From: a virus | DNA length: 24,418 nt | IMG/VR virus record: IMGVR_UViG_3300025646_000355 | Coordinates: 1 to 24,418 of that record | Reading direction: 5' to 3' (one strand) | In this document: one piece after another, positions 1,065 to 24,405 of the stretch | Layout: every line of letters begins with the position of its first letter | Numbering within the stretch: position 1 is the first letter of the stretch | Notes under the pieces: model-generated | The model's input: the letters and a program-made list of their open reading frames with translations, nothing else | The model's database searches: none | What the model was told of the DNA's origin: nothing | Translations under genes and position numbers: made by a program

Positions 1065-1630
1065 AAACATTTGTAGAAATAGGTAGTTCTTTTTTCAATA
1101 CTCTTCAACCTCTTTGTGAAGCAGGTTGGAAAGGAGTTATAGTTGAACCTCAAAGAGAAGCTCTAGACCTTATCCCAGAACACGATAATTTGATTAAGGT
1201 AGAAGGAGCGATAAGTACAAATTTTGAAGTTAGAATTTTAAAAAGAATTAAACCTAGTCTTTGGGATTCAATAGAAGATAAAGATTTTATAGGGATGGCT
1301 TCATTAAGTTACGAATCTCCTATTTATAAAAAATTTGATCCCTACTATGTTGAAGATTTAGAAGTAGGTTGTGTTACTTTTGAATTTTTAATGGATCAAT
1401 TAGGTATTACTGAAATTGATTATCTAAAAATTGATGTTGAAGGATTAGATTTTGATATTATTAAATCTATTAATTTTGATAAATTTAACATCAAATATAT
1501 AAAATTTGAATATGAACACTCTCAAGATTTAGGTTATACTATTTTAGAAATGCTTGATTTTTTAAAAGAAAGGAATTATTTTACCGAATTATACGAAACG
1601 CCATCCGACATTATAGCAATTAAATTATGA
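1061..1630 (+). CDS. FkbM-family SAM-dependent methyltransferase
   Basis: A 189-residue protein with FkbM (Methyltransf_21) features. It opens with FVEIGSS, the shortened glycine motif of the SAM site. GVIVEPQRE near residues 25-33 matches the family's v-EP-p acidic motif that binds the SAM ribose. IDYLKIDVEGLDFDII at about 120-135 is the hallmark D-x-KIDVEG-E-x segment. It is somewhat shorter than many FkbM proteins (about 200-250 residues) but appears complete. These enzymes usually O-methylate sugars or polyketides. With glycosyltransferases on both sides, joined by ATGA overlaps, it probably methylates a sugar added by its neighbours. It appears soluble and cytoplasmic. Confidence 0.87.
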   Translation: MKTFVEIGSSFFNTLQPLCEAGWKGVIVEPQREALDLIPEHDNLIKVEGAISTNFEVRILKRIKPSLWDSIEDKDFIGMASLSYESPIYKKFDPYYVEDLEVGCVTFEFLMDQLGITEIDYLKIDVEGLDFDIIKSINFDKFNIKYIKFEYEHSQDLGYTILEMLDFLKERNYFTELYETPSDIIAIKL

Positions 1631-3921
1631 AGCCGAAAGTTTATGCACACGCCTCTTATGTAGGTAATACTGGTTATAATAATCATACACGTGATTTTTT
1701 TAGAAGATTATCTCAACACATCGATTTAAAAGTCAGAAATTTTACTATCGGTAAATCTTGGGATTGGCCCTCAGATGAACCCCATAATGGAGAACCTTAT
1801 CTTAACGATATAGATAAGAAATTATTAGTAGAACAAACACTATGGACTAATCAAGAAAAAGGAGAAAGATCTGATTTTCCTATTTATAAAAATTATCCTA
1901 ACGAGTTTGAACATAATATTAATTTAGTTTTAGAAGAAACAGATCATCATTTTTTCTATGATTATTATAAAGGGCCAAAAATCGCTTACAATGTTTGGGA
2001 ATCAACTTTACAACCCGAACACTTTTTTAATAAATTAAAAGAATACGATCAAATTTGGGTACCTTCTCAATGGCAAGCCGAATGTACAATTGCCCAAGGT
2101 ATGCCTGTTGATAAAGTAAAAGTTGTACCCGAAGGTGTAGACGTAAATACTTTTTATCCTGAAGACCCTGTTACTAAACTCGATTATGTAGATGGTCGTT
2201 TTAAATTTATTTTATTCGGTCGTTGGGATTATAGAAAATCTACTAAGGAAATTATTGAAACATTCCTTAAAGAATTTAAACCAGACGAACCAGTTGATTT
2301 GATTGTTTCTATTGATAATCCATTCTCAGGTGATGGTCATAAAACCACAGAAGATAGATTACAAGCTTATGGTTTTACAGATGAACGTATTAAAGTAAAA
2401 CATTTCCCATCACGCGAAGATTATATTACTTATATGAAAAACGGGCACGTATTTTTATCTTGTGCTCGTAGTGAAGGGTGGAATTTACCTTTAATTGAAG
2501 CAATGGCTTGTGGTACACCTGCTATCTACTCAGAATGTTGTGCCCAAATGGAATTTGCTAAAGGTAAGGGATTACCTGTTAAAGTATTAGGTGAAAAACC
2601 AGCATTAGATGCTAATTACAACCACTTTAACACAGTAGTAGGTAATTACTACGAACCTGATTTTGAAGATTTAGCTCGTGTAATGCGCGACGCTTTTGAA
2701 AATTATACAGATCATAAAAAACGAGCATTTTATGAAGCTAAATTAATTCATCGTGATTTTAATTGGGAACGTATTGGTGAGATAGGTGCTAAAACCCTTC
2801 AGGATTTTATTGATAATTACCAAGAACCAGAAGATACAAATACAATTCACGTAAACTTTATAGGTAAACCCAAAGTTGAAATTTTAGGTGATGTATCTAA
2901 ATCTTATTTAGTTGAATTCATTAATGCTGAAACCGGAGCTCTAGTTTATTCCCAAGAAATTCGGAATAATATGTGGACCCATTGTAACAAAGAATATTAC
3001 ATTCCTTGGCTTATTAAAGTTAATGGTAAAGAAATAACTCGATTAAATTTAGAAAATCATCGCGTTTTAATTTCTTTAGAATCAAAATCAATTGGTGATT
3101 CTATTGGTTGGACTCCTTATGCTGTAGAATTTGCTAAAAAACATAATTGTAAAGTAGTATTATCTACATTTCACAACGATTGGTTTAAAGGACTTGAAGC
3201 ATATCGAGATATTGAATTTATAGAACCCGGTGAGGTAACTGCTTGTATTGCTCATTATCGCATTGGCTGGTTTAGAGATGAAAAAGAAGGATGGCAAAAT
3301 TTTGATAGACACCCTCGCCAGTGTAATATTATTCCAATGCAAGCTACCGCCAGTGATATTTTAGGTTTAGAATTTAAGGAATTAAATCACGGAGTTGATT
3401 TTAAAATAGGAGATCGACCAATTCCTAACAAGTATGTTGTAATTGGCCCTAATGCTACAGCAGGTTGTAAAGAATGGGTGTTTGATTATTGGGTTACCCT
3501 AGCAAAACTATTAAATCAGCAAGGATATGCTGTTATTAGTTTGACTCCTAATGAATTTCCGATGGATAATGTACTAAATTACTACGGGCAAGAGATGGAT
3601 GTAGTAGCAACTATATTACACCACGCCGAATTATTCATTGGTTTAGGATCAGGATTAAGTTGGATAAACTGGGCAATTGGAAAACATACAGTAATGATTA
3701 ATGGTTTTAGTGAACCCGGACACGAATTTACTAAAAAAGTTACTCGAATCTATAAAGACAATGTTTGTTTCCCTTGTTGGACAAATCGCAATTTTGTATT
3801 TGATGCCGGTGATTGGAATTGGTGCCCAATTCATAAAGGAACTGATAAACAATTTATTTGTCAAAAATCAATAACTCCTCAAATAGTTATGTCTAAAATT
3901 AGATCTTTATTAAAAAAATAA
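1627..3921 (+). CDS. Two-domain glycosyltransferase: GT4 fused to an autotransporter-heptosyltransferase-like GT9 domain
   Basis: A 764-residue bifunctional protein. Residues about 1-395 form a GT4 (Glycos_transf_1) enzyme: a Rossmann segment FILFGRWDYRKS near 195 and the E-x7-E motif SEGWNLPLIE, with glutamates 283 and 291. Residues about 405-764 resemble the TibC/BAHT autotransporter strand-loop-strand O-heptosyltransferases. They show a beta-rich adaptor (VEFINAETGALVYSQEIRNN), then SLESKSIGDSIGW, GPNATAGCKEW, and LFIGLGSGLSWINWAIGK. The end has four cysteines, 714, 717, 733 and 745, in the arrangement that holds iron in TibC. The family moves heptose from ADP-heptose onto Ser/Thr of bacterial adhesins. 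Here the acceptor is unknown; a virion protein or a host glycan are both possible. The start is in an ATGA overlap with the methyltransferase gene. The domain calls are firm; the sugar is inference. Confidence 0.85.
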   Translation: MKPKVYAHASYVGNTGYNNHTRDFFRRLSQHIDLKVRNFTIGKSWDWPSDEPHNGEPYLNDIDKKLLVEQTLWTNQEKGERSDFPIYKNYPNEFEHNINLVLEETDHHFFYDYYKGPKIAYNVWESTLQPEHFFNKLKEYDQIWVPSQWQAECTIAQGMPVDKVKVVPEGVDVNTFYPEDPVTKLDYVDGRFKFILFGRWDYRKSTKEIIETFLKEFKPDEPVDLIVSIDNPFSGDGHKTTEDRLQAYGFTDERIKVKHFPSREDYITYMKNGHVFLSCARSEGWNLPLIEAMACGTPAIYSECCAQMEFAKGKGLPVKVLGEKPALDANYNHFNTVVGNYYEPDFEDLARVMRDAFENYTDHKKRAFYEAKLIHRDFNWERIGEIGAKTLQDFIDNYQEPEDTNTIHVNFIGKPKVEILGDVSKSYLVEFINAETGALVYSQEIRNNMWTHCNKEYYIPWLIKVNGKEITRLNLENHRVLISLESKSIGDSIGWTPYAVEFAKKHNCKVVLSTFHNDWFKGLEAYRDIEFIEPGEVTACIAHYRIGWFRDEKEGWQNFDRHPRQCNIIPMQATASDILGLEFKELNHGVDFKIGDRPIPNKYVVIGPNATAGCKEWVFDYWVTLAKLLNQQGYAVISLTPNEFPMDNVLNYYGQEMDVVATILHHAELFIGLGSGLSWINWAIGKHTVMINGFSEPGHEFTKKVTRIYKDNVCFPCWTNRNFVFDAGDWNWCPIHKGTDKQFICQKSITPQIVMSKIRSLLKK

Positions 3922-13176: not shown

Positions 13177-13484
13177 TGAATCGTTACGCTGATATACCTA
13201 AAATTAAGAGTCTAACCGGGAAATTGATGTATGCAACATCAAAATATCCTGAGGTTCCTCTTTCTGAAAATGATACGTACGTTTATACAAGTATAGGGGA
13301 TCGTTATGACATATTAGCTAATCAATATTACAATGACTCATCTTTATGGTGGGTTATTGCTATTGCTAATCCTGATGTTGATTTAATGACTCTTGTTATT
13401 CCTAATGGTTCCCAAATAAGAATTCCCAGTGATATTGCTGGTATAATTTATCGTTTTAACACTATAAATAGACTTAATGTATGA
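13176..13484 (+). CDS. gp53: Baseplate wedge protein with LysM-like domain (T4 gp53-like)
   Basis: A 102-residue protein. Residues 35-86 (YTSIGDRYDILANQYYNDSS, then LWWVIAIANP and IPNGSQIRIPSD) follow the gp53/LysM-like pattern: start-up strand, helix, the W-W-x-I-A-x-AN motif and the closing G-x-x-(I/L)-x-IP strand. In T4, gp53 joins wedges around the hub. Many contractile phages have a short LysM-like protein in this position, immediately before the hub, where it binds tube and hub. It is much shorter than T4 gp53 (about 196) and retains essentially the LysM part. It overlaps the preceding stop by one base and the next start by ATGA, so translation is probably coupled. Confidence 0.85.
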   Translation: MNRYADIPKIKSLTGKLMYATSKYPEVPLSENDTYVYTSIGDRYDILANQYYNDSSLWWVIAIANPDVDLMTLVIPNGSQIRIPSDIAGIIYRFNTINRLNV

Positions 13485-16400
13485 GCATTATTGGAGAAGC
13501 TTTACCATCCGAAATTAATGGTCAAATACAAATCCGCCAAGAAAAATATGGTAAATTAAACAGAACTACTGAAGAATTACAATTTTTTAATCTAAGATCA
13601 GCTTGGGTTAAATTAGTTAGTTCAGTAGATATTACTGATAGTTATGAGCCTGCTAGTGCAGATTTAAAATCAGTTATAAATGAAATCAAAGGCAGTCAAC
13701 TAGCTAAAAAATTTGTTCTTTTTAATGGAACTGCAGATAGAACATATGGGAATACTTCATCACAAAGAGCAGGAATTGCTAGAAATGGTAGTATTTTAAA
13801 CCCCAATGCTTATGGTCTAGGAGGTCTAGAATTTGGTTTAAAACCAATGCCTGGTATTATAAATGCTTCAATAAAAACTGAAACTAGAGGTTCTTTAAAA
13901 ACAGGGACTATCAAAATTAAAGCTTGGAATAGGACTCAATTTGAAATTATTGATCTTTTATATTTAAGATTAGGTTACTCAATTTTATTAGAATGGGGTA
14001 ATATAATGTACTATAAAAATGATGGTACTTTTGTAAAAGATAACCCCCCTTCTTTAGAAGCTGGTTTTTTAAATAACCAATATACTACACAAGGAATTTT
14101 AGATGCTATACAAAAAAATAGATTATCATCAAATGGTAACTACGATGCAATGTATGGTAAAGTTGTAAACTTTGAATGGTCGTTAGATGAAGATGGAAGT
14201 TACGATATTACATTAAAAATTAGAAGTATAGGTGACGTAATCGAATCTTTAAAAGTAAATGTTGCTAATGATTTACCAACTAACAATGCTCCTTTATCAC
14301 CTGGTGGTGGAATTTATTCTAACCCCTCAAATAAATTAACTGAAATTTTATTTTCTTACATCCATTTATTTAATAATTGGGGACAAAATCTACAACCAGG
14401 ATCTTCAACCACCATTTCAGCTAATTCAGCTAGCCCAACAAATCCTAGTGTTTTAGCTAAAATGTTAAAAAGCGATGCTACTTTAGCATATAATGGTTAT
14501 GGGGCTAAAATTATAAAAGGGGGTGGATTGACTGGCATTGAAGAAGAAGATAAGTTAGCAAATTTTCTAGAACAAAGTTATGGCTCTGTTGAGAGTAGTC
14601 AAAAAATGTATTATGTTCGTTTAGGTTATCTTTTAAAAATATTAGAAACCCAAATTTTTCCAAAATATGAAGGAAAAGATCCAATTTTAAAATTTAACAC
14701 GGATGTAGATCAAAATGTTTGTTTTTATCTTGATGGTATTGTTTGTTTAAATCCTAACCTTTCTTTGATAGGAACACACCTTAAATACCCTTCAGGTAAT
14801 GTTTATGAATTTGCTTATGGTGCTGAAAGATACCTATCTAAAATTGGGGATGTTACTTTAGGTAAAATAATGAATATCTATGTTAACATAAGTATGATTG
14901 CGGGTACGATGTCAGTTATGAAGGAACCAACTTCAGATTCTACATTATTTAATGATTTTCTTGATCAATTAATTAAACCAATTTCGGGTAATTTAGGAGG
15001 TTATAATAAATTTGAGTTGCATATAGAGGAAACCACTAATACAACTTACATAATTGACCAGTATCCACTTCCTAACAGAGATCAAGTTTTAAAAAATTTA
15101 AAAAAAGTTACAAAAGATACAAATGCTATAATTGAATTATGGGGTTACAATAGAACTGGCGCTACTAGTAGGGCATCATTTGTTCGGAATTTTGGTATGC
15201 AAACTTCTATTACCCCAGAATTAGCAACCATTATTACAATTGGTGCTCAAGCACAGGGTTCAGCCGGAAATACAGATTCAACAGCCTTATCTAAATTAAA
15301 TCAAGGATTAAGAGATAGAATTAAACCTACAGTCACAGATGCTTATGTACCTACAGCTGGGGCTGAAACTGACGAAGATAAATTAAAAAAATTAAAAGCT
15401 AAATTTCCTAATGTTTGGTCTCAATATAATCTATATGTTGAAAAATTAGGAGTAAAAAATAGTCTAAGTTTAACAACTCAACCTACTTTAGCTTTATCTA
15501 CAACTCCTGAAGGAGAAGAGATGACCATAGATTTCTCAGATCAAGCTTCAGCTGTAAATTCTATTGTTCAATATAGTATAGCTAAAAATGCTATTGCCGA
15601 AAATAGAGCATCAGGAGCTACAGGTTTTATACCTGTTAGTGTTAACTTAACTCTTGATGGTATATCTGGTATTAAAATCTATAGTGTATTATCAATAGAT
15701 ACAACATATCTACCTTCAAACTATCCTAAAACAATGGATTTTATTGTTACAGGAGTTACAAATAATTTATTAAACAATGACTGGACAACTGAAATAACAA
15801 CCATAATGGTTCCCAATACCAGTCAAGATAGTTTATTAAACGAAATTGAAGATCCAAAATCTCCTCCAAGAAGATCAGGCAATTCCGGAGGTGGAGGATC
15901 AGGTGGATCTGATTCATTCCCAGAAGATCAAGCTGATTGGCCTAAATCAAGCCCATCAGGATTTCCAATGAAACCTACAGGACACCAAGCAAAAGAAGTA
16001 ACAAAAAGTCAAATTGTTTTACACTACTCTGCAGGTTGGCAACGTGCTGATAAAAATAAACAAACTGTTGATATTTTAAATAGTAGACATCAAAGAACTG
16101 CAAAAAGTCCAAAAGGTATTGATAATCCACCTTTAGGTTTATCATACCATTATGGTGTTGACGTTACAGGACACGTAGAAAACTTTATTCCTGAAAATTA
16201 CATAGCATATCACGCTTCTGGGGCAAACCAAAATTCAATTGGAATTAATATTCAATGTATAGGTTTTGGTTCAAGTGAAACTCAAACAAATGCTGGCCCT
16301 TTATCAAAAGTAGCAGGTCAATCTCCAAATGTTAAATTAGTAGATTGGAATGGTAAGGCGAAAGCATATAGAGGTAAAGAGTGGGCCCAAGAAATTTCTG

Positions 16401-16639
16401 ATGCTCAATACACAGCATTATTAAAACTAATCCCAGAAATAGCTAAAAGAAATCCTTCTATTGGTAGTTATGTATGGGAAGGAGAAAAAACATTTAACCA
16501 AATCTTCCCAGGATCAACAAGTACTTCATACAATGCAGGAACACCTGGATTATATTCACATAATTCTATTACCACTGGAAAAATAGATGTTTTACCTACA
16601 CCAAAAATAATTGAATTACTAAAAAATTTGAAATTCTAA
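13481..16639 (+). CDS. Baseplate hub protein with C-terminal N-acetylmuramoyl-L-alanine amidase (PGRP/Amidase_2)
   Basis: A 1052-residue protein. Residues about 1-790 are hub-like: MPGIINASIKTETRGSLKTG and RTQFEIIDLLYLRLGYSILL (118-170) mark a conserved structural domain with a beta-rich continuation, occupying the place of T4 gp27/gp5. A Gly/Ser linker at about 796-815 precedes an amidase domain at about 830-1045. There, LHYSAGW (His848), LSYHYGVDVTG (His890), YHASGANQNSIGINIQ (His911) and SHNSITTGKID (His1027, Lys1034, Asp1036) match the PGRP fold. His848, His1027 and Asp1036 are the likely zinc ligands and Lys1034 the catalytic lysine. It would cut the amide bond between MurNAc and the stem peptide during tail penetration. 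T4 uses a muramidase in the equivalent place. The start is in an ATGA overlap with the gp53-like gene. Confidence 0.85.
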   Translation: MSIIGEALPSEINGQIQIRQEKYGKLNRTTEELQFFNLRSAWVKLVSSVDITDSYEPASADLKSVINEIKGSQLAKKFVLFNGTADRTYGNTSSQRAGIARNGSILNPNAYGLGGLEFGLKPMPGIINASIKTETRGSLKTGTIKIKAWNRTQFEIIDLLYLRLGYSILLEWGNIMYYKNDGTFVKDNPPSLEAGFLNNQYTTQGILDAIQKNRLSSNGNYDAMYGKVVNFEWSLDEDGSYDITLKIRSIGDVIESLKVNVANDLPTNNAPLSPGGGIYSNPSNKLTEILFSYIHLFNNWGQNLQPGSSTTISANSASPTNPSVLAKMLKSDATLAYNGYGAKIIKGGGLTGIEEEDKLANFLEQSYGSVESSQKMYYVRLGYLLKILETQIFPKYEGKDPILKFNTDVDQNVCFYLDGIVCLNPNLSLIGTHLKYPSGNVYEFAYGAERYLSKIGDVTLGKIMNIYVNISMIAGTMSVMKEPTSDSTLFNDFLDQLIKPISGNLGGYNKFELHIEETTNTTYIIDQYPLPNRDQVLKNLKKVTKDTNAIIELWGYNRTGATSRASFVRNFGMQTSITPELATIITIGAQAQGSAGNTDSTALSKLNQGLRDRIKPTVTDAYVPTAGAETDEDKLKKLKAKFPNVWSQYNLYVEKLGVKNSLSLTTQPTLALSTTPEGEEMTIDFSDQASAVNSIVQYSIAKNAIAENRASGATGFIPVSVNLTLDGISGIKIYSVLSIDTTYLPSNYPKTMDFIVTGVTNNLLNNDWTTEITTIMVPNTSQDSLLNEIEDPKSPPRRSGNSGGGGSGGSDSFPEDQADWPKSSPSGFPMKPTGHQAKEVTKSQIVLHYSAGWQRADKNKQTVDILNSRHQRTAKSPKGIDNPPLGLSYHYGVDVTGHVENFIPENYIAYHASGANQNSIGINIQCIGFGSSETQTNAGPLSKVAGQSPNVKLVDWNGKAKAYRGKEWAQEISDAQYTALLKLIPEIAKRNPSIGSYVWEGEKTFNQIFPGSTSTSYNAGTPGLYSHNSITTGKIDVLPTPKIIELLKNLKF

Positions 16640-17353: not shown

Positions 17354-18607
17354 ATGTTCTGGCTTGTAGAATCACAAGAACAATTTGGTCAATTTAAAAG
17401 AAACCTCAACAAAGAGGTATTCTTAGAAATTATTCCTTACAACCCATTTATACACCCAACACAAAATTCAATTTGTGCTTTGTATATTCGTCCTCTAAAC
17501 GACCATAAAGGATATTTACTCCCAATCTATCACACAGAAAGTAGTGTTTTATTTGAGGATGATGTTTTTTTATTAATTAAGGGTTTAGAAAAAATTTACG
17601 TTAAGGATAAAAAGGAATTTTTACATTATTTTCCCCTTAAACAATCTATTGATGTAACTTTTCCAAATCAAATAGAAGTAAAGTATACAAATGCTCACGA
17701 ATTTATCTACGAAAAACATAAACATAGAGTAGATGTAAACACATTAGTACCCATTGTTAAACACTATGAATATTGTGAAGCATTATTTGAAGAATTAGAA
17801 CACTTAATCAGCAAACCAGTTAATGAGTTTTATAATGTAAAAGCAAGTTGGGTGTTTTGTGGTATAGAAAAAAGCGGTTTACACGTCAATATAGATTTGT
17901 ATAACCAATACTTTAATGAAACCACGGAACCCTACGTTTTTACAAAATATAATTTTAAAACACTTACAACACGCCCATCAAATAACTTTAACGGAGTAAA
18001 TTATGCTGCACTCAATAAAGAAAATGGATGTCGGGAAGCTTTTATTCCGAGGAATGGTACGTTTATTGAGTTCGATATTAGCGCTTATCATCCTACTCTT
18101 TTGGCTAATGCAATTGGTTATAATTTTGATAATGAGGACATTTATAGTCACTTTGCACAAGTTTATAGACTTAATAGGCAAGAAGCCAAACTACTAACCC
18201 TCCAGCAACTATATGGAGGTGTCTTACAACAATACGAAAAACTTGAATTCTTTAAAAAGGTAAGAATTTATGTAGATGATTTGTGGGATACTTTCCAATA
18301 TCAGGGTTACATTGAATGTCCAATATCCGGTTTTAAATTTTATAAGGATAAACTGGAAAATATGAATCCCCAAAAATTACTTAATTATGTAATACAGAAC
18401 CTAGAGACTGCAAATAATATTAATTTAATGTGGGAATTTTTTAAAATTCTAAAGGGAAAAAACACAAAATTAGTATTATATACCTACGACTCTTTTTTAT
18501 TCGACGTTGATACAGATGAAAAAGATACATTAAACTCAATAAAGAGCATATTTAAAAAACAAAATTTAAGTTATAAAATTAAAAATGGAACTAGCTACAA
18601 CTTTTAA
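17354..18607 (+). CDS. Miniature family A DNA polymerase, vestigial exonuclease region
   Basis: A 417-residue DNA polymerase with divergent Pol I palm and finger motifs. TTRPSNNFNGVNYAALNK (205-222) and AFIPRNG match the template-binding block. Motif A is FIEFDISAYHPTLLA with Asp241. Motif B is R275-x3-K279-x3-L283-x3-Y287-G288, with Leu where Pol I has Phe762. N344-x3-Q348 matches the Pol I Asn845/Gln849 pair. Motif C is YTYDS with Asp379 (HDE/HDS in most). Residues 1-60 resemble the first strands of the 3'-5' exonuclease (VFLEIIP, GYLLPIYH) but lack the D-x-E pair, and the other exonuclease motifs are absent. The thumb appears reduced: only about 30 residues separate IEKSGLHVN (171) from the palm block. 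Rhodothermus phage RM378 also has polymerase and proofreading exonuclease on separate proteins. Replicative role is inferred from its helicase, SSB and nuclease neighbours. Confidence 0.8.
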   Translation: MFWLVESQEQFGQFKRNLNKEVFLEIIPYNPFIHPTQNSICALYIRPLNDHKGYLLPIYHTESSVLFEDDVFLLIKGLEKIYVKDKKEFLHYFPLKQSIDVTFPNQIEVKYTNAHEFIYEKHKHRVDVNTLVPIVKHYEYCEALFEELEHLISKPVNEFYNVKASWVFCGIEKSGLHVNIDLYNQYFNETTEPYVFTKYNFKTLTTRPSNNFNGVNYAALNKENGCREAFIPRNGTFIEFDISAYHPTLLANAIGYNFDNEDIYSHFAQVYRLNRQEAKLLTLQQLYGGVLQQYEKLEFFKKVRIYVDDLWDTFQYQGYIECPISGFKFYKDKLENMNPQKLLNYVIQNLETANNINLMWEFFKILKGKNTKLVLYTYDSFLFDVDTDEKDTLNSIKSIFKKQNLSYKIKNGTSYNF

Positions 18608-19040
18608 GGTGCCTTACGATATTTATGGTAAAGACAACCTTAATACCATAGATTTGAACAATAAGTTATTTTGCACTTTTACTAGGGAAGAAGACATAGA
18701 AAATCTAATTGAAGATTTATCCTACAAATATACTATCTTATACAATAAAATATTTGTCTTAGAAGTTAAAGACAATAATGAATATGTTATCACATATAAT
18801 ATTGACTTAACTAACTTAGCAGAGATCCCTGAGAATACTATTTTAGTGCACCGGAAAAAAGAGACAAACACATTGTATACTATCAATGCACTTAATGAGT
18901 TAATTAAAAGGTTAAATGGTGGAGTAGTTGACTCTCGCTTTAAAATAGAGTGGAAGCATTACAAAAATACCATACTTTTAACCCAGCAAAATGATCTTAA
19001 ACAATTAAAGACGAAAATTTTCAAAATCATTGAACTTTAA
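18585..19040 (+). CDS. Unknown protein overlapping the polymerase gene
   Basis: A 151-residue protein whose ATG lies within the polymerase gene, 23 bases before its stop codon, in a different frame. The overlap implies translational coupling to the polymerase. It is soluble, mixed alpha/beta by eye, and rich in Asn, Leu, Lys and Thr. Segments such as LYTINALNELIKRLNGGVVD and FKIEWKHYKNTILLTQQNDL look like a compact conserved fold rather than a random frame. No catalytic motif is visible. It could be a polymerase accessory or regulatory factor, or a replacement for a lost polymerase subdomain, but no family is recognised. A candidate promoter for gp32 begins directly after its stop. Confidence 0.68.
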   Translation: MELATTFKVPYDIYGKDNLNTIDLNNKLFCTFTREEDIENLIEDLSYKYTILYNKIFVLEVKDNNEYVITYNIDLTNLAEIPENTILVHRKKETNTLYTINALNELIKRLNGGVVDSRFKIEWKHYKNTILLTQQNDLKQLKTKIFKIIEL

Positions 19041-19095: not shown

Positions 19096-19911
19096 ATGGA
19101 TTTAAACTTTATTAAAAGCAAAATGGCTGCAATGCAGCAAAAGACAGAAAGTAAAGGCAACAACAAAGAACTTTTCTGGAAACCCCCCGTAGGTAAAACA
19201 CAAATTCGTATTGTACCTTCAAAGTACGATAAGAAAAATCCTTTTAAGGAATTGATGTTTTACTATGGTATTGATCGTCCTGTGATGATTTCTCCTCTTA
19301 ATTTTGGTGAAAAAGATCCCATTGCTGAGACTGCTAAACAACTTCGTCAAACTAGTGATAAAGAAAATTGGCGCTTAGCTAAAAAACTTGATCCTAAAAT
19401 GAGAATTTTTGCACCTGTGATTGTACGTGGTGAAGAAGATAAAGGTGTTCGCTTGTGGCAGTTTGGTAAGGAAATGTATATGGAATTACTTTCAATTGCA
19501 GACGATGATGATTACGGAGATTACACCGACGTAACTCAAGGTTATGATTTTACAGTTGAAACTGTTGGTCCTGAAACAACTGGTACTAACTACAATAAGT
19601 CTTCAATTCGTCCTAAACCAAAACAAAGCCCATTATCAGAAGATGCTGATTTGGTAGAAAATTGGTTAGAAAATCAACCTGACCCCTCAGCAGTATTTAA
19701 AAAGTGGTCTTATGAAGAAATGAAGCAATCCCTTCAAAAGTACCTAATCCCAGAAGATGCTGAAGAAGGTGATATCATCGACGATGAAAAAGAACCAGAA
19801 GTAACTGAAGCACCTAAATCAAACTACAGCTTAAACACTTCAGCTAAAACTGTAAAGCAGAGTAAAGCTGATAAGTTTGACGAAATGTTTGAAGACGATC
19901 TTCCGTTTTAA
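19096..19911 (+). CDS. gp32: Single-stranded DNA-binding protein (T4 gp32-like)
   Basis: A 271-residue protein with the gp32 plan. A basic N-terminal arm (LNFIKSKMAAMQQKTESKGN) for cooperative binding precedes the OB-fold core from FWKPPVGKTQIRIVPSKYD through the VRLWQFGKEMYMELLSIAD region. A linker and then a strongly acidic tail ending DKFDEMFEDDLPF follow; in T4 the tail recruits polymerase, helicase loader and UvsW. It is slightly shorter than T4 gp32 (301). It has no cysteine or histidine at all, so the zinc site of T4 gp32 (one His, three Cys) is absent. It lies directly before uvsX and starts the recombination/replication set. The leader has no Shine-Dalgarno sequence. Confidence 0.92.
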   Translation: MDLNFIKSKMAAMQQKTESKGNNKELFWKPPVGKTQIRIVPSKYDKKNPFKELMFYYGIDRPVMISPLNFGEKDPIAETAKQLRQTSDKENWRLAKKLDPKMRIFAPVIVRGEEDKGVRLWQFGKEMYMELLSIADDDDYGDYTDVTQGYDFTVETVGPETTGTNYNKSSIRPKPKQSPLSEDADLVENWLENQPDPSAVFKKWSYEEMKQSLQKYLIPEDAEEGDIIDDEKEPEVTEAPKSNYSLNTSAKTVKQSKADKFDEMFEDDLPF

Positions 19912-19921
19912 TTAAAAATAT

Positions 19922-21007
19922 ATGGCAAGAGGTAAAAAAACGACTACGTCGTTAACGGCAGCAGTCTCCGCTGAAATTAAATCAAATTTTGATTTAAATA
20001 AGTTTAAATCTAAGAAAGGTTTACTTGGTAATGTAAAATTTAAACCTCAATCTTGGATTCCTCTATCACCTGCCTTCCAAGAAGTAACAAGTGTGCCCGG
20101 TATTCCTACCGGACACATTGTTCTTCTTCGAGGCCATAGTGATACAGGTAAAACTACTGCGCTTATTGAAGCTGCAGTTAATGCTCAAAAAGCAGGTATT
20201 CTACCGGTGTTTATCATCACCGAGATGAAATGGAACTGGGAACACGCCACACAAATGGGTTTAAAAGTAAATGAGGTTGTAGATGAAGAAACCGGTGAAA
20301 TCCTAGATTATAACGGATTCTTTATTTATGCCGACCGCGAAACTATCCACACTATTGAGGATGTAGCAGCTTTCATTTTGGATTTGCTTGATGAGCAGAA
20401 AAAAGGCAATTTACCTTATGACTTGCTTTTCTTGTGGGATTCAATCGGTTCAGTACCTTGTGAAATGTCTGTTAAGTCTAACAAGAACAACAACGAATGG
20501 AATGCTGGTGCTATGAGTACTCAATTTGGTAATAACGTCAACCAAATGATTACTTTAAGTAGAAAAGAAAGTTCTCCTTACACCAACACCTTAGTTTGTA
20601 TTAACAAAGTATGGACTGCTAAACCGGAATCTCCTATGGGTCAACCTAAGTTGATGAACAAAGGTGGTTTTGCGATGTGGTTTGATGCAACGTTTGTAGT
20701 AACATTTGGTAATGTTTCAAATGCAGGTACAAATAAGATTAAAGCAATCAAGGATGGTAAGCAAGTAGAATTTGCTAAACGCACCAATCTCCAGATTGAT
20801 AAAAATCACATCAATGGTATTACTACAAAAGGTAAAATCATTATGACCCCACACGGATTCATTGATGATACGGATAAAGCTCTTAAGGATTATAAAGATG
20901 ATCACGCAAAAGAGTGGAGTGCAATTTTAGGAGGAGGTAACTTCGATATTATTGAGGAAGTCGATTCTTTTGAACCGGCTCAAGAATACGCTCAGGAACC
21001 AGAATAG
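19922..21007 (+). CDS. uvsX: UvsX, RecA-like recombinase
   Basis: A 361-residue recombinase that forms filaments on ssDNA and drives strand exchange and recombination-dependent replication. Visible are VPGIPTGHIVLLRGHSDTGK, with the Walker A motif at 71-78 (GHSDTGKT); VFIITEMKW with Glu101, the RecA-like catalytic glutamate; LLFLWDSIGSVP with the Walker B Asp173; a loop-rich DNA-binding region around SNKNNNEWNAGAMST; and an acidic C-terminus (DIIEEVDSFEPAQEYAQ). Length is close to T4 UvsX (391). It follows gp32, its T4 partner, after 10 bases, in the same likely operon. The ATG has no Shine-Dalgarno sequence. Confidence 0.94.
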   Translation: MARGKKTTTSLTAAVSAEIKSNFDLNKFKSKKGLLGNVKFKPQSWIPLSPAFQEVTSVPGIPTGHIVLLRGHSDTGKTTALIEAAVNAQKAGILPVFIITEMKWNWEHATQMGLKVNEVVDEETGEILDYNGFFIYADRETIHTIEDVAAFILDLLDEQKKGNLPYDLLFLWDSIGSVPCEMSVKSNKNNNEWNAGAMSTQFGNNVNQMITLSRKESSPYTNTLVCINKVWTAKPESPMGQPKLMNKGGFAMWFDATFVVTFGNVSNAGTNKIKAIKDGKQVEFAKRTNLQIDKNHINGITTKGKIIMTPHGFIDDTDKALKDYKDDHAKEWSAILGGGNFDIIEEVDSFEPAQEYAQEPE

Positions 21008-21008
21008 A

Positions 21009-22040
21009 ATGGATAAAAAAGATTTATTAAAACTCCTCAACAATTTAAGTGAGGAGAATGATAGTGAATCCCTTAAAAAACACGATCGTGTACTTTTAAT
21101 TGATGGATTAAATTTATTTTTTCGAAATTTTGCAATGCTTAATTTCGTTAATGAAGAAGGTCTACACGTTGGAGGTTTAGGTGGTTTTTTAAGATCATTA
21201 GGTACATTAATAAATCAAATCCAACCTACTTCAATTTATATTATTTTTGATGGAGAAGGTTCTTCTTCAAATAGAAAAAACTTAGTTTCTGAGTATAAAT
21301 CAAATCGAAATATTCGAAGAATTACCAACTGGCAGGTATTTAATAGTTTAGAAGATGAAAACGAAGCTAAAATCAACCAAATAGTTCGTTTAATCCACTA
21401 TTTAAAATGCATCCCAGTAAAAGTTATTTCGTTTGAAAAAGCCGAAGCCGACGATATTATTGCTCATTTATCTCATACTCTAGAAGCCCAATTTAGTAGT
21501 AAAGTTTTTATAGTATCAAGTGATAGGGATTTTATACAACTAGTAAATAAAAATATTGTTGTTTATAGACCTATTGAAAAAGATTACTATACAGAAGAAA
21601 CAATTTTACAAAAATTTGGAATTCCAGCAAAGAATTTTATCTTATATAAAACATTATTAGGAGATAGTTCGGATATGGTAAAGGGTATTAAAGGATTAGG
21701 TGAAAAAGGAATCCTTAAAAAATTCCCAGAACTAGCTCAACGTGTTTTAAGTTTAGAAGATATTTTTGATATTTGTAAAGCTAAATATAAAGAACACGTT
21801 GTCTATTCTAGGGTTATTTTTGAATATGAAAATCTAGAAAAGAATTATTCTATTATGGATCTAAGTGATCCGTGGTTGACTGATGAACAGAAAGAATTTT
21901 TAGATAATTTTATTCTAGAACCTACTCCTAAATTGAATGAAAAAGCTTTTTTAAAGTTTTATCAAGAAGATGGTTTAAGACATTTGATTAAAAATGTAGA
22001 ATATTGGTTAACAAGTAATTTTAAAGGTATAATTAATTAG
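21009..22040 (+). CDS. rnh: 5'-3' exonuclease / flap endonuclease (T4 RNase H-like)
   Basis: A 343-residue FEN-family nuclease that removes RNA primers and flaps at Okazaki fragments. I place the start at the ATG at 21009, one base after the uvsX stop; an upstream ATG at 20952 would force a 56-base overlap and add residues unlike the family. Acidic metal-binding residues appear in the T4 RNase H order: Asp32 (LLIDGLNLFFRNF), Asp81 (IIFDGEG), Glu146/Asp148 (KAEADDII), Asp172/Asp174 (SSDRDF) and Asp219/Asp222 (LGDSSDMVKGI). The last group leads into a helix-three-turn-helix (GIKGLGEKG). SEYKSNR at 94-100 matches the arch region. Size and order fit T4 RNase H (305). The replicative helicase gene follows after 4 bases. 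Confidence 0.93.
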   Translation: MDKKDLLKLLNNLSEENDSESLKKHDRVLLIDGLNLFFRNFAMLNFVNEEGLHVGGLGGFLRSLGTLINQIQPTSIYIIFDGEGSSSNRKNLVSEYKSNRNIRRITNWQVFNSLEDENEAKINQIVRLIHYLKCIPVKVISFEKAEADDIIAHLSHTLEAQFSSKVFIVSSDRDFIQLVNKNIVVYRPIEKDYYTEETILQKFGIPAKNFILYKTLLGDSSDMVKGIKGLGEKGILKKFPELAQRVLSLEDIFDICKAKYKEHVVYSRVIFEYENLEKNYSIMDLSDPWLTDEQKEFLDNFILEPTPKLNEKAFLKFYQEDGLRHLIKNVEYWLTSNFKGIIN

Positions 22041-22044
22041 TAAA

Positions 22045-23397
22045 ATGACTCTGAATAATTTAAATTCATATGGTCCTGGTTTTCAAATAAAGGTTTTAGC
22101 ATCACTTTTAAACCATAAAGAATTTCTTATCAATATTCACGATATTTTAAGTGATGAGTATTTTGATAATCAAGCTCACAAATGGGTTATTAAAGAAATC
22201 CTAAAATATTATGAAAAGTACCACACCACTCCCACAATGGAAGTGTTTAAAGTTGAACTTAAAAAAGTTCAAAATGAAGTACTTCAAATATCAATTAAAG
22301 AACAACTAAAAGAAGCATACAAATCATCAAATGATGATTTAGAATACATTGAAAATGAATTTTCATCATTCTGTAAAAATCAACAACTTAAAAAAGCATT
22401 ATTAAGTAGTGTTGATTTATTGAATGCTGGTGATTATGAGTCAATTAAGTTTTTAATTGAGTCTGCTATGAAAGCAGGTCAAGATAAAAATGTTGGTCAC
22501 GAGTATTCTAAAGATATTGAATCTCGATATCGTGAAGAGCATAGAATTGCTATTCCTACACCTTGGGAAGAATTTAATGAATTACTTCAAGGAGGTCTTG
22601 GTGGTGGTGATTTTGGTTTAATGTTTGGTAATCCTGGTGGTGGTAAATCTTGGGCACTAGTTGCTTTAGGTGGTCACGCTTGTAAAATGGGTTTCAATGT
22701 CATTCATTATACTCTTGAGTTAGGAGAAGATTACGTTGGTAGGAGATATGATGCCTTCTTTACCCACATCCCAGTAAATAAAATTTTAAATCATAAAAAA
22801 GAAGTTGAAGAAGTTGTTGGTAAAGTTCCGGGAAAATTGATTATTAAGGAATTTCCTACGGGGAAAGCAACCATTTCAACTATTGAATCACATATTAAAA
22901 AATGTATTGATTTAGATTTTGAACCTGATCTAATTCTTATTGACTATGTTGATTTACTTCGTTCAAAAAGGCTGTCTCGGGAGCGTAAGGAAGAAATAGA
23001 TGATATTTATGTTGGTACGAAAGGATTAGCCCGAGAGTTAAATTTACCTATCTGGAGTGTCTCACAAGTTAACCGAGCAGGTTCTAAAGATGACATTATT
23101 GAAGGTGATAAAGCTGCCGGTAGCTATGACAAAATGATGATAACGGATTTTGCAGCTTCATTATCAAGAAAAAAAGAAGATAAAGTTAATGGCACAGGAA
23201 GGTTCCACATTATGAAAAACAGGTATGGTATGGATGGTCTTACTTTCGGCGCAAAGATAGACACCTCGATGGGTTATTTTGAGATTTCTTCTGATATTGA
23301 ATCCGAAACTGCTAGTTCGCCTAAACAAAATTCAAGTTTTGACACGTTTTCAAACGACGAAAAGCAAAAAGTTAGTAACTTTTTGTTAAATATTTAA
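22045..23397 (+). CDS. gp41: Replicative DNA helicase (DnaB/T4 gp41-like)
   Basis: A 450-residue hexameric 5'-3' helicase. Residues about 10-150 are the all-helical N-terminal domain (FQIKVLASLLNHKEFLINIH). The RecA-like motor has TPWEEFNELLQGGLGGGDFG, then Walker A GNPGGGKS at 195-202, HYTLELGED with Glu225 as the likely catalytic base, Walker B LILIDYVDLL with Asp300, SVSQVNRAGSKDD (motif H4-like, DNA-binding side) and SLSRKKEDK near the arginine-finger region. Length is close to T4 gp41 (475). It is preceded by the 5' nuclease and probably acts with the family A polymerase upstream. No primase is visible in the window. The C-terminal 40 residues are polar and probably flexible. Confidence 0.93.
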   Translation: MTLNNLNSYGPGFQIKVLASLLNHKEFLINIHDILSDEYFDNQAHKWVIKEILKYYEKYHTTPTMEVFKVELKKVQNEVLQISIKEQLKEAYKSSNDDLEYIENEFSSFCKNQQLKKALLSSVDLLNAGDYESIKFLIESAMKAGQDKNVGHEYSKDIESRYREEHRIAIPTPWEEFNELLQGGLGGGDFGLMFGNPGGGKSWALVALGGHACKMGFNVIHYTLELGEDYVGRRYDAFFTHIPVNKILNHKKEVEEVVGKVPGKLIIKEFPTGKATISTIESHIKKCIDLDFEPDLILIDYVDLLRSKRLSRERKEEIDDIYVGTKGLARELNLPIWSVSQVNRAGSKDDIIEGDKAAGSYDKMMITDFAASLSRKKEDKVNGTGRFHIMKNRYGMDGLTFGAKIDTSMGYFEISSDIESETASSPKQNSSFDTFSNDEKQKVSNFLLNI

Positions 23398-23418: not shown

Positions 23419-24405
23419 ATGGCAAAGAAGAAATCTCTATTGCAGGAACGGGTCATCTACAAACCTTTTGAATATCAAGAGGCATACGAATACTGGTTAA
23501 AACAACAACAAGCACACTGGTTGCACACCGAAGTGCCTATGATGTCTGATCTAAATGATTGGAAACAAAATTTAACTGATACTGAAAAAAATATTGTAGG
23601 ATCTATTCTTAAGGGATTTGCTCAAACAGAAACAATTGTAAACGATTATTGGTCTGGGTTAGTAACAAAATGGTTCCGCAAACCAGAAGTTATTATGATG
23701 GCTACAACTTTTGGCGCATTTGAAACAATCCACGCTGAAGCATATTCACTTTTAAATGAAACACTTGGACTTGACAACTTCTCAGAATTTCTCGAAGATG
23801 AAGCTACGATGGCTAAAATTGAAAATCTTATGCTTGTTAGGGATAGTTTTGATAATGAAAAAGATCTTCACGAAATTGCTAAGTCCCTTGCCATATTCTC
23901 AGCATTTACCGAAGGAGTTAACCTATTCAGTTCCTTTGCCGTACTCCTTTCTTTTAAGATGCGAAACAAGCTTAAGGGTGTGGGTCAAATTGTTGAATGG
24001 TCTATTAGAGACGAGTCAATGCACTCAGAAGCAGGATGTTGGTTATTCAGAACATTGATTGAAGAAAATCCACATCTTAGAACAAAAGAACTAGAAGCAG
24101 CAATTAATGAAGCAGCTTTACTTTCTCTTAAACTTGAGCTTGATTTTATCAATAAAGTTTACGAACTTGGTGACTTAGATGGATGTAGTAAATATGATTT
24201 AGAAAACTTTATCAAAAACCGAGTTAATACAAAACTGGGTGATTTAGGTTACAACCCAATTGTTTTAAATGTTGATGTAACTGCAGTTGAACGTATGAAA
24301 TGGTTCGATGCTCTATCAGCTGGAAAACAACACACTGATTTCTTTGCTAATAGAGTAACTAACTATTCTAAAGGACATATGACTTGGGATGAAAGCATTT
24401 TTTAA
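23419..24405 (+). CDS. nrdB: Class I ribonucleotide reductase small (beta) subunit
   Basis: A 328-residue radical-generating subunit, which with NrdA reduces ribonucleotides to deoxyribonucleotides. All six dinuclear-metal ligands and the radical tyrosine are present: Glu71 (FAQTET), Glu102 and His105 (FETIHAEAY), Tyr109, Glu165 (FTEGVNLF), Glu199 and His202 (RDESMHSEAG). The 31-residue interval from Glu71 to Glu102 equals that from Asp84 to Glu115 in E. coli R2, so the first ligand is Glu where E. coli has Asp. This occurs in several phage and bacterial subgroups. The C-terminus ends SKGHMTWDESIF, a plausible NrdA-binding tail. No nrdA lies within the window; it may be just downstream or supplied by the host. 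Phages use NrdB to support rapid DNA synthesis. Confidence 0.95.
   Translation: MAKKKSLLQERVIYKPFEYQEAYEYWLKQQQAHWLHTEVPMMSDLNDWKQNLTDTEKNIVGSILKGFAQTETIVNDYWSGLVTKWFRKPEVIMMATTFGAFETIHAEAYSLLNETLGLDNFSEFLEDEATMAKIENLMLVRDSFDNEKDLHEIAKSLAIFSAFTEGVNLFSSFAVLLSFKMRNKLKGVGQIVEWSIRDESMHSEAGCWLFRTLIEENPHLRTKELEAAINEAALLSLKLELDFINKVYELGDLDGCSKYDLENFIKNRVNTKLGDLGYNPIVLNVDVTAVERMKWFDALSAGKQHTDFFANRVTNYSKGHMTWDESIF

Follow-up and report, generated by a model that had tools for sequence, protein, structure and literature searches.

A compact divPolA1-type family A DNA polymerase at the head of a phage replication cluster, and its probable accessory role

Described divPolA1 polymerases and the gene in the window

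The divPolA1 family was named by Yutin et al. 2024 (Virol J 21:200, PMC11348598) from 14 phages, including Flavobacterium phage immuto. Its members are divergent PolA proteins with a truncated thumb, an inactivated exonuclease domain and a conserved palm, encoded upstream of replication genes, and the phages that carry them also possess a regular DNA polymerase of family A, B or C (PMC11348598). The barbavirus divPolA2 of the same study is likewise a divergent PolA without an exonuclease domain, found beside a regular polymerase, but its description sets it apart by another N-terminal domain and a variable gene neighbourhood.

The window (the whole 24,418-nucleotide stretch of viral DNA analysed here) contains an intact open reading frame with an ATG start at 17354-18607 (+), encoding a 417-aa protein, P0001. 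This is a real gene under purifying selection: dN/dS is ~0.08 against an 86% identical relative and ~0.14 against a 75% identical one. As a single sequence, P0001 has no significant match in Pfam, PHROGs or PDB, and the Pol I motifs assigned to it in a first-pass annotation, made from the sequence alone, therefore needed testing. In a tblastn search of phage records, P0001 is homologous to immuto gp001, annotated as DNA polymerase family A, with 35% identity over 98% of its length (E 7e-69). PF00476 is matched by immuto gp001 (E 4.6e-11) and not by P0001. Like P0001, this founding member of divPolA1 has a truncated thumb, an inactivated exonuclease, a retained palm and replication genes downstream. 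Homologues, family profiles, an AlphaFold2 model and the published description (PMC11348598) concur in assigning 17354..18607 to divPolA1, a miniature family A DNA polymerase. On these comparisons P0001 is a previously unlisted member of the family published in 2024, and the central claim is thus already known. P0001 differs from divPolA1 as published in being a member with Leu762 and Arg754.

The family is widespread. The search of phage records also matches the uncultured 484 kb phage LR756508 and Microcystis phage Mel-JY01, while viral contigs provided 25 close loci around P0001, with at least 584 relatives confirmed by profile, and a further 312 around immuto and 109 around Mel-JY01. A single-protein search with the polymerase of the 484 kb phage returned no further relatives. 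The LR756508 genome (L032) carries divPolA1, the partner gene orf151 described below and pieces of a PolB, and its size is far from that of the 155-190 kb group of the literature. Relatives in bacterial assemblies come without exception from metagenome bins. Flavobacteria account for about half of these, an indication of Bacteroidota hosts; the bins assigned elsewhere may represent phage contigs that were binned wrongly. Many water-dwelling T4-like phages carry divPolA1 in addition to their normal replication polymerase. Annotation tends to overlook the family: P0001 escapes general family libraries, and in Mel-JY01 the protein is labelled hypothetical.

The present additions are modest and testable. 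The universal orf151 partner, the invariant histidine at the E710 position and the derived state of Leu762 were not found in the main text of PMC11348598, nor were Mel-JY01 and the 484 kb phage as carriers or the hundreds of environmental relatives. The partner and the histidine, which occupies the steric-gate position, provide testable leads on how a thumbless polymerase could function.

Fold, reduced domains and active site

The AlphaFold2 model of P0001 (pLDDT 93.3, pTM 0.90) was built, like that of orf151, solely from sequences of IMG/VR and of the window. It superposes on Pol I large fragments with Z 25-26.5 over 387-392 of the 417 residues, the match spanning residues 1-417. A family profile of 16 or 80 relatives retrieves only Pol I chains from the PDB (best E 0.0013 and 0.0017, respectively). 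When the profile is compared by hhalign with an alignment of 11 PolA sequences, the local alignment covers residues 189-403 (Prob 97.5, E 7e-12) and the global alignment reaches Prob 98.9 and E 1.4e-16. Only this PolA alignment worked; the single sequences of T7 gp5 and of the RM378 polymerase gave nothing. P0001 is a compact family A polymerase, with palm and fingers, motifs A, B and C, the two catalytic aspartates, the equivalent of Lys758 and the Pol I fold. The motif residues, D241 and D379 among them, lie where the first-pass annotation had placed them. The protein has the same fold along the whole chain and the same motif order as the Bacillus and E. coli Pol I large fragments, but it is ~160 residues shorter and almost thumbless, has His in place of E710 and Ser or Ala in place of E883, and its 5' nuclease is encoded by a separate gene. 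The polymerase is thus reduced to a palm, small fingers, a dead proofreading domain and hardly any thumb.

The N-terminal domain (~aa 1-130; 17354..17743, +) is a 3'-5' exonuclease remnant without the acidic residues, as indicated by the global profile alignment, the structural match and conservation. Pol I D355, E357 and D424 align to I27, Y29 and K96 of P0001, and D501 falls in a deletion, in a loosely aligned region; no acidic triad is conserved in this domain among 80 divPolA1 members. A vestigial exonuclease had been proposed for the first 60 residues: the loss of the acidic residues holds, and the domain extends well beyond that limit. In Bacillus Pol I, too, the exonuclease domain is vestigial. 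Within the remnant, H34, H60 and K87 are invariant (80/80 members), which suggests that a structural or binding role may persist in a supposedly dead domain.

The thumb remnant (~aa 180-195; 17891..17938, +) is delimited by the anchors IEKSGLHVN/ERNGVKID and VFTKY/VHTSY. Measured from the IE-x-x-G-[LI] element (Pol I 541-548) to the strand preceding T-x-R-P-x-N (Pol I ~655), ~16 residues between IEKSGLHVN and VFTKY of P0001 replace the ~106 of the Pol I/Klenow thumb. The thumb is therefore nearly gone, and the strong reduction proposed initially is borne out. With neither thumb nor proofreading, the polymerase should be distributive and error-tolerant.

Phage RM378 had been invoked as a precedent for a polymerase split from its exonuclease. 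It does share this arrangement, in a T4-like phage, but its polymerase (p092/p024) matches T4 gp43 and/or the Mel-JY01 PolB and gives nothing in profile comparison with divPolA1. It is a split family B enzyme and so provides no precedent for a family A polymerase.

Active site residues are given in E. coli Pol I numbering, which equals that of the Salmonella Pol I record plus 44; this conversion gives the expected letter at D355, E357, D424, D501, R668, D705, E710, R754, K758, F762, Y766, N845, Q849, H881, D882 and E883. Motif A (aa 236-250; 18059..18103, +) was placed by profile alignment and conservation and contains the catalytic D241 (D705) and, at the Klenow E710 position, the invariant H246. 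Motif B, the O-helix (18176..18217, +), contains R275 (R754), K279 (K758), L283 (F762), Y287 (Y766) and G288, the family consensus being Y275 and F283. It is followed by N344 (N845) and Q348 (Q849), and by motif C, LYTYDSFLFD (18476..18505, +), in which D379 corresponds to D882 and S380 occupies the E883 position; motifs B and C rest on conservation and alignment. Among 80 non-redundant members, R207 (R668), D241, K279, Q348 and D379 are invariant and Y287 is kept in 79.

Other positions have changed. The steric-gate glutamate of Pol I is replaced by His in all 80 members; this residue is conserved within family A and is not essential to its definition. At E883, Ser and Ala occur in 40 members each. 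The R754 position is Tyr in 72/80 members and Arg in the clade of the window, and the F762 position is Phe in 75/80 and Leu in five, including P0001. R275 and L283 are thus specific to this clade, and Leu762 of P0001 is derived. The first-pass annotation was right that Leu occupies this position, but the residue is unusual only within divPolA1, since in two virome sets the viral PolAs carry Leu here more often than any other residue, and Leu762 has been associated with synthesis that is slower and more accurate (PMC6302109). As E710 is the Pol I steric gate that excludes ribonucleotides (PMC9324360), the invariant His may alter or replace that gate. The polymerase of Thermus phage Tt72 is a phage PolA with a natural Ser at E883, which indicates that Ser there does not stop such an enzyme, but it differs from divPolA1 in its strong proofreading and in keeping E710; without the E710-equivalent side chain it retains 35% activity (PMC9324360). 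The activity of the putative divPolA1 enzyme could be very low or altered, given the replacement of E710, E883 and, mostly, R754. No published report of activity was found for any divPolA1.

Replication cluster and second polymerase

The genes downstream of P0001 are replication genes on the same strand, and the setting of the polymerase in a cluster with gp32, UvsX and DnaB is supported. The polymerase gene overlaps by 23 nt orf151 (18585..19040, +), which encodes a 151-aa protein characterised by conserved linkage and structure prediction. Then follow a gp32-like single-stranded DNA-binding protein (19096..19911, +; PF08804 E 4.5e-15, phrog_1192), a UvsX/RecA-like recombinase (19922..21007, +; Pfam, PHROGs), a 5'-3' exonuclease of the Pol I 5'-nuclease/FEN type (21009..22040, +; PF02739 E 5.8e-34, phrog_107), for which the ATG at 21009 is a more likely start than the listed TTG at 20952, a DnaB/gp41-like replicative helicase (22045..23397, +; PF03796 E 2.6e-16, phrog_19 E 3.8e-79) and a ribonucleotide reductase small subunit (23419..24405, +; PF00268 E 3.2e-63).

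This arrangement is conserved. The order divPolA1 > orf151 > gp32 > (UvsX) > 5' nuclease > DnaB is found in 97 of the 100 loci with 7 kb downstream, while in each of the other three one gene went undetected. UvsX was not detected in 34 of these long loci, probably because the recombinase of the Mel-JY01 type is divergent (only E 1.6e-5). orf151 lies downstream of divPolA1 in all 190 loci with at least 3 kb downstream, a set of related loci that includes near-duplicates and comprises 83 polymerase and 68 partner sequences below 88% identity. Moreover, divPolA1 and orf151 match exactly the same six entries among phage records, and no fusion of the two in one ORF occurs in 268 loci. Searches of Pfam, PHROGs and PDB give no significant sequence match for the orf151 protein. 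Its residues 24-88 are predicted to adopt a generic ferredoxin/ACT-like alpha-beta fold, with weak matches (best Z 7.2; Foldseek, VIA-align). RegA was considered as a relative of orf151 and rejected on comparison. The hairpin that precedes the polymerase start does not exceed shuffled sequences in strength (z -0.7) and is not conserved.

The relatives encode a second, large polymerase. In the closest large one, a 170 kb contig whose divPolA1 is 86% identical, this is a gp43-like family B polymerase in two main ORFs, accompanied by a clamp loader of gp44 type and by an ORF that weakly matches gp62. The PolB has its own exonuclease domain and adjoins the clamp-loader genes. The split PolB lies on the minus strand (L045:17405-19999 and L046:1-615), with the exonuclease and motifs A and B in a ~572-aa ORF, motif C in a 309-aa ORF, and two small ORFs in between, one of 82 aa and one of 74 aa with an Smr domain; a split PolB also occurs in G002 and G025. 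GroEL-/GroES-like ORFs (L045:14348-16294) are located between the PolB and clamp-loader genes, a position reported for the divPolA1 phage group by Yutin et al. (PMC11348598).

Among 17 large divPolA1 records, 16 contain a second large polymerase, either PolB (nine) or a full-length PolA of ~780 aa (seven). The two occur together in none of the 17, and neither was found in one 114 kb contig. For example, the full-length PolA of immuto is 777 aa long and includes an exonuclease domain, being the only protein in which the PF01612 proofreading domain was found, and Mel-JY01 has annotated PolB and clamp-loader genes. The relatives also encode a DnaG-type primase. A second full-length polymerase in the genome, which the first-pass annotation regarded as fatal to its own reading, is therefore present in the group to which the window is related; as the window is a 24.4 kb fragment, we infer the second polymerase of its own phage from these relatives. 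divPolA1 is one of few second, stripped-down phage DNA polymerases, and it is fixed while the family of the large polymerase differs among relatives.

Upstream of the polymerase gene, the window encodes a 1052-aa baseplate-region protein (13481-16639) that ends in an Amidase_2 domain (PF01510, E 6.3e-12) and is probably a virion enzyme that cuts peptidoglycan. A 764-aa protein (1627-3921) combines a group 1 glycosyltransferase with a GT9 heptosyltransferase-like part and adjoins an FkbM methyltransferase (1061-1630).

Possible functions of the polymerase

We consider it probable that divPolA1 is an accessory, non-proofreading, low-processivity family A polymerase that fills gaps, the bulk of replication being carried out by the large PolB or PolA. 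The putative enzyme would be active and distributive and would fill short gaps after the co-encoded 5' nuclease has removed RNA primers or, alternatively, at recombination intermediates made by gp32 and UvsX. The large polymerase would act with the clamp loader, and presumably the clamp, in the PolB phages. In such a scheme the 5' nuclease and the gap-filling polymerase, which bacterial Pol I combines, would be encoded by separate genes of one cluster. Given the gp32/UvsX/5' nuclease cluster, the simplest role to propose is the filling of short gaps during recombination or as lagging strands mature. This role is deduced from the neighbours and the anatomy of the protein, which lesion bypass or break repair would also fit.

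The orf151 protein might bind the polymerase or the primer-template and so compensate for the missing thumb. A stronger version can be entertained only tentatively: divPolA1 and orf151 would form an obligate two-subunit polymerase with the thumb supplied in trans, and the His steric gate would change sugar selectivity and allow a role at RNA-DNA junctions. Thioredoxin, which clamps T7 polymerase, provides a parallel, of which a thumb in trans would be a more extreme analogue.

It seems unlikely that divPolA1 is a lesion-bypass or recombination-repair polymerase of the Pol theta/nu type rather than a routine gap filler. The lost proofreading and thumb contacts, the altered active site and the clustering with gp32 and UvsX would suit such an enzyme, but its place as the first gene of a core replication cluster, kept across the group, suggests routine use, and it has no lesion-specific domain or insert.

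Still harder to sustain is the proposal that divPolA1 performs the main replication and the large PolA or PolB is auxiliary. Membership of an invariant replication cluster, in a group where the large polymerase varies in family and where, according to Yutin et al. (PMC11348598), gene context says less about what the regular polymerases do, speaks for it. However, divPolA1 lacks proofreading residues and almost lacks a thumb, and the PolB of the closest relative, with its exonuclease domain, stands beside the clamp-loader genes. The gp43 function in a T4-type replisome that the first-pass annotation gave to divPolA1 is not supported on the same grounds, and a large second polymerase is present both in that relative and in nearly all the large records.

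Synthesis or extension of RNA or mixed RNA-DNA, as primer or transcript, is improbable. The replacement of the ribonucleotide-blocking E710 (PMC9324360) by H246 and the YD[S/A] form of motif C could be taken in its favour, but a residue as bulky as His may take over as the gate, the structures that match best are those of DNA Pol I, and a DnaG-type primase is already available in the relatives. Finally, the loss of E710, E883 and often R754 might suggest a catalytically dead, structural or regulatory pseudo-polymerase, which is very improbable since all 80 members retain both catalytic aspartates as well as the counterparts of K758 and Q849, and the palm and fingers are under strong purifying selection.
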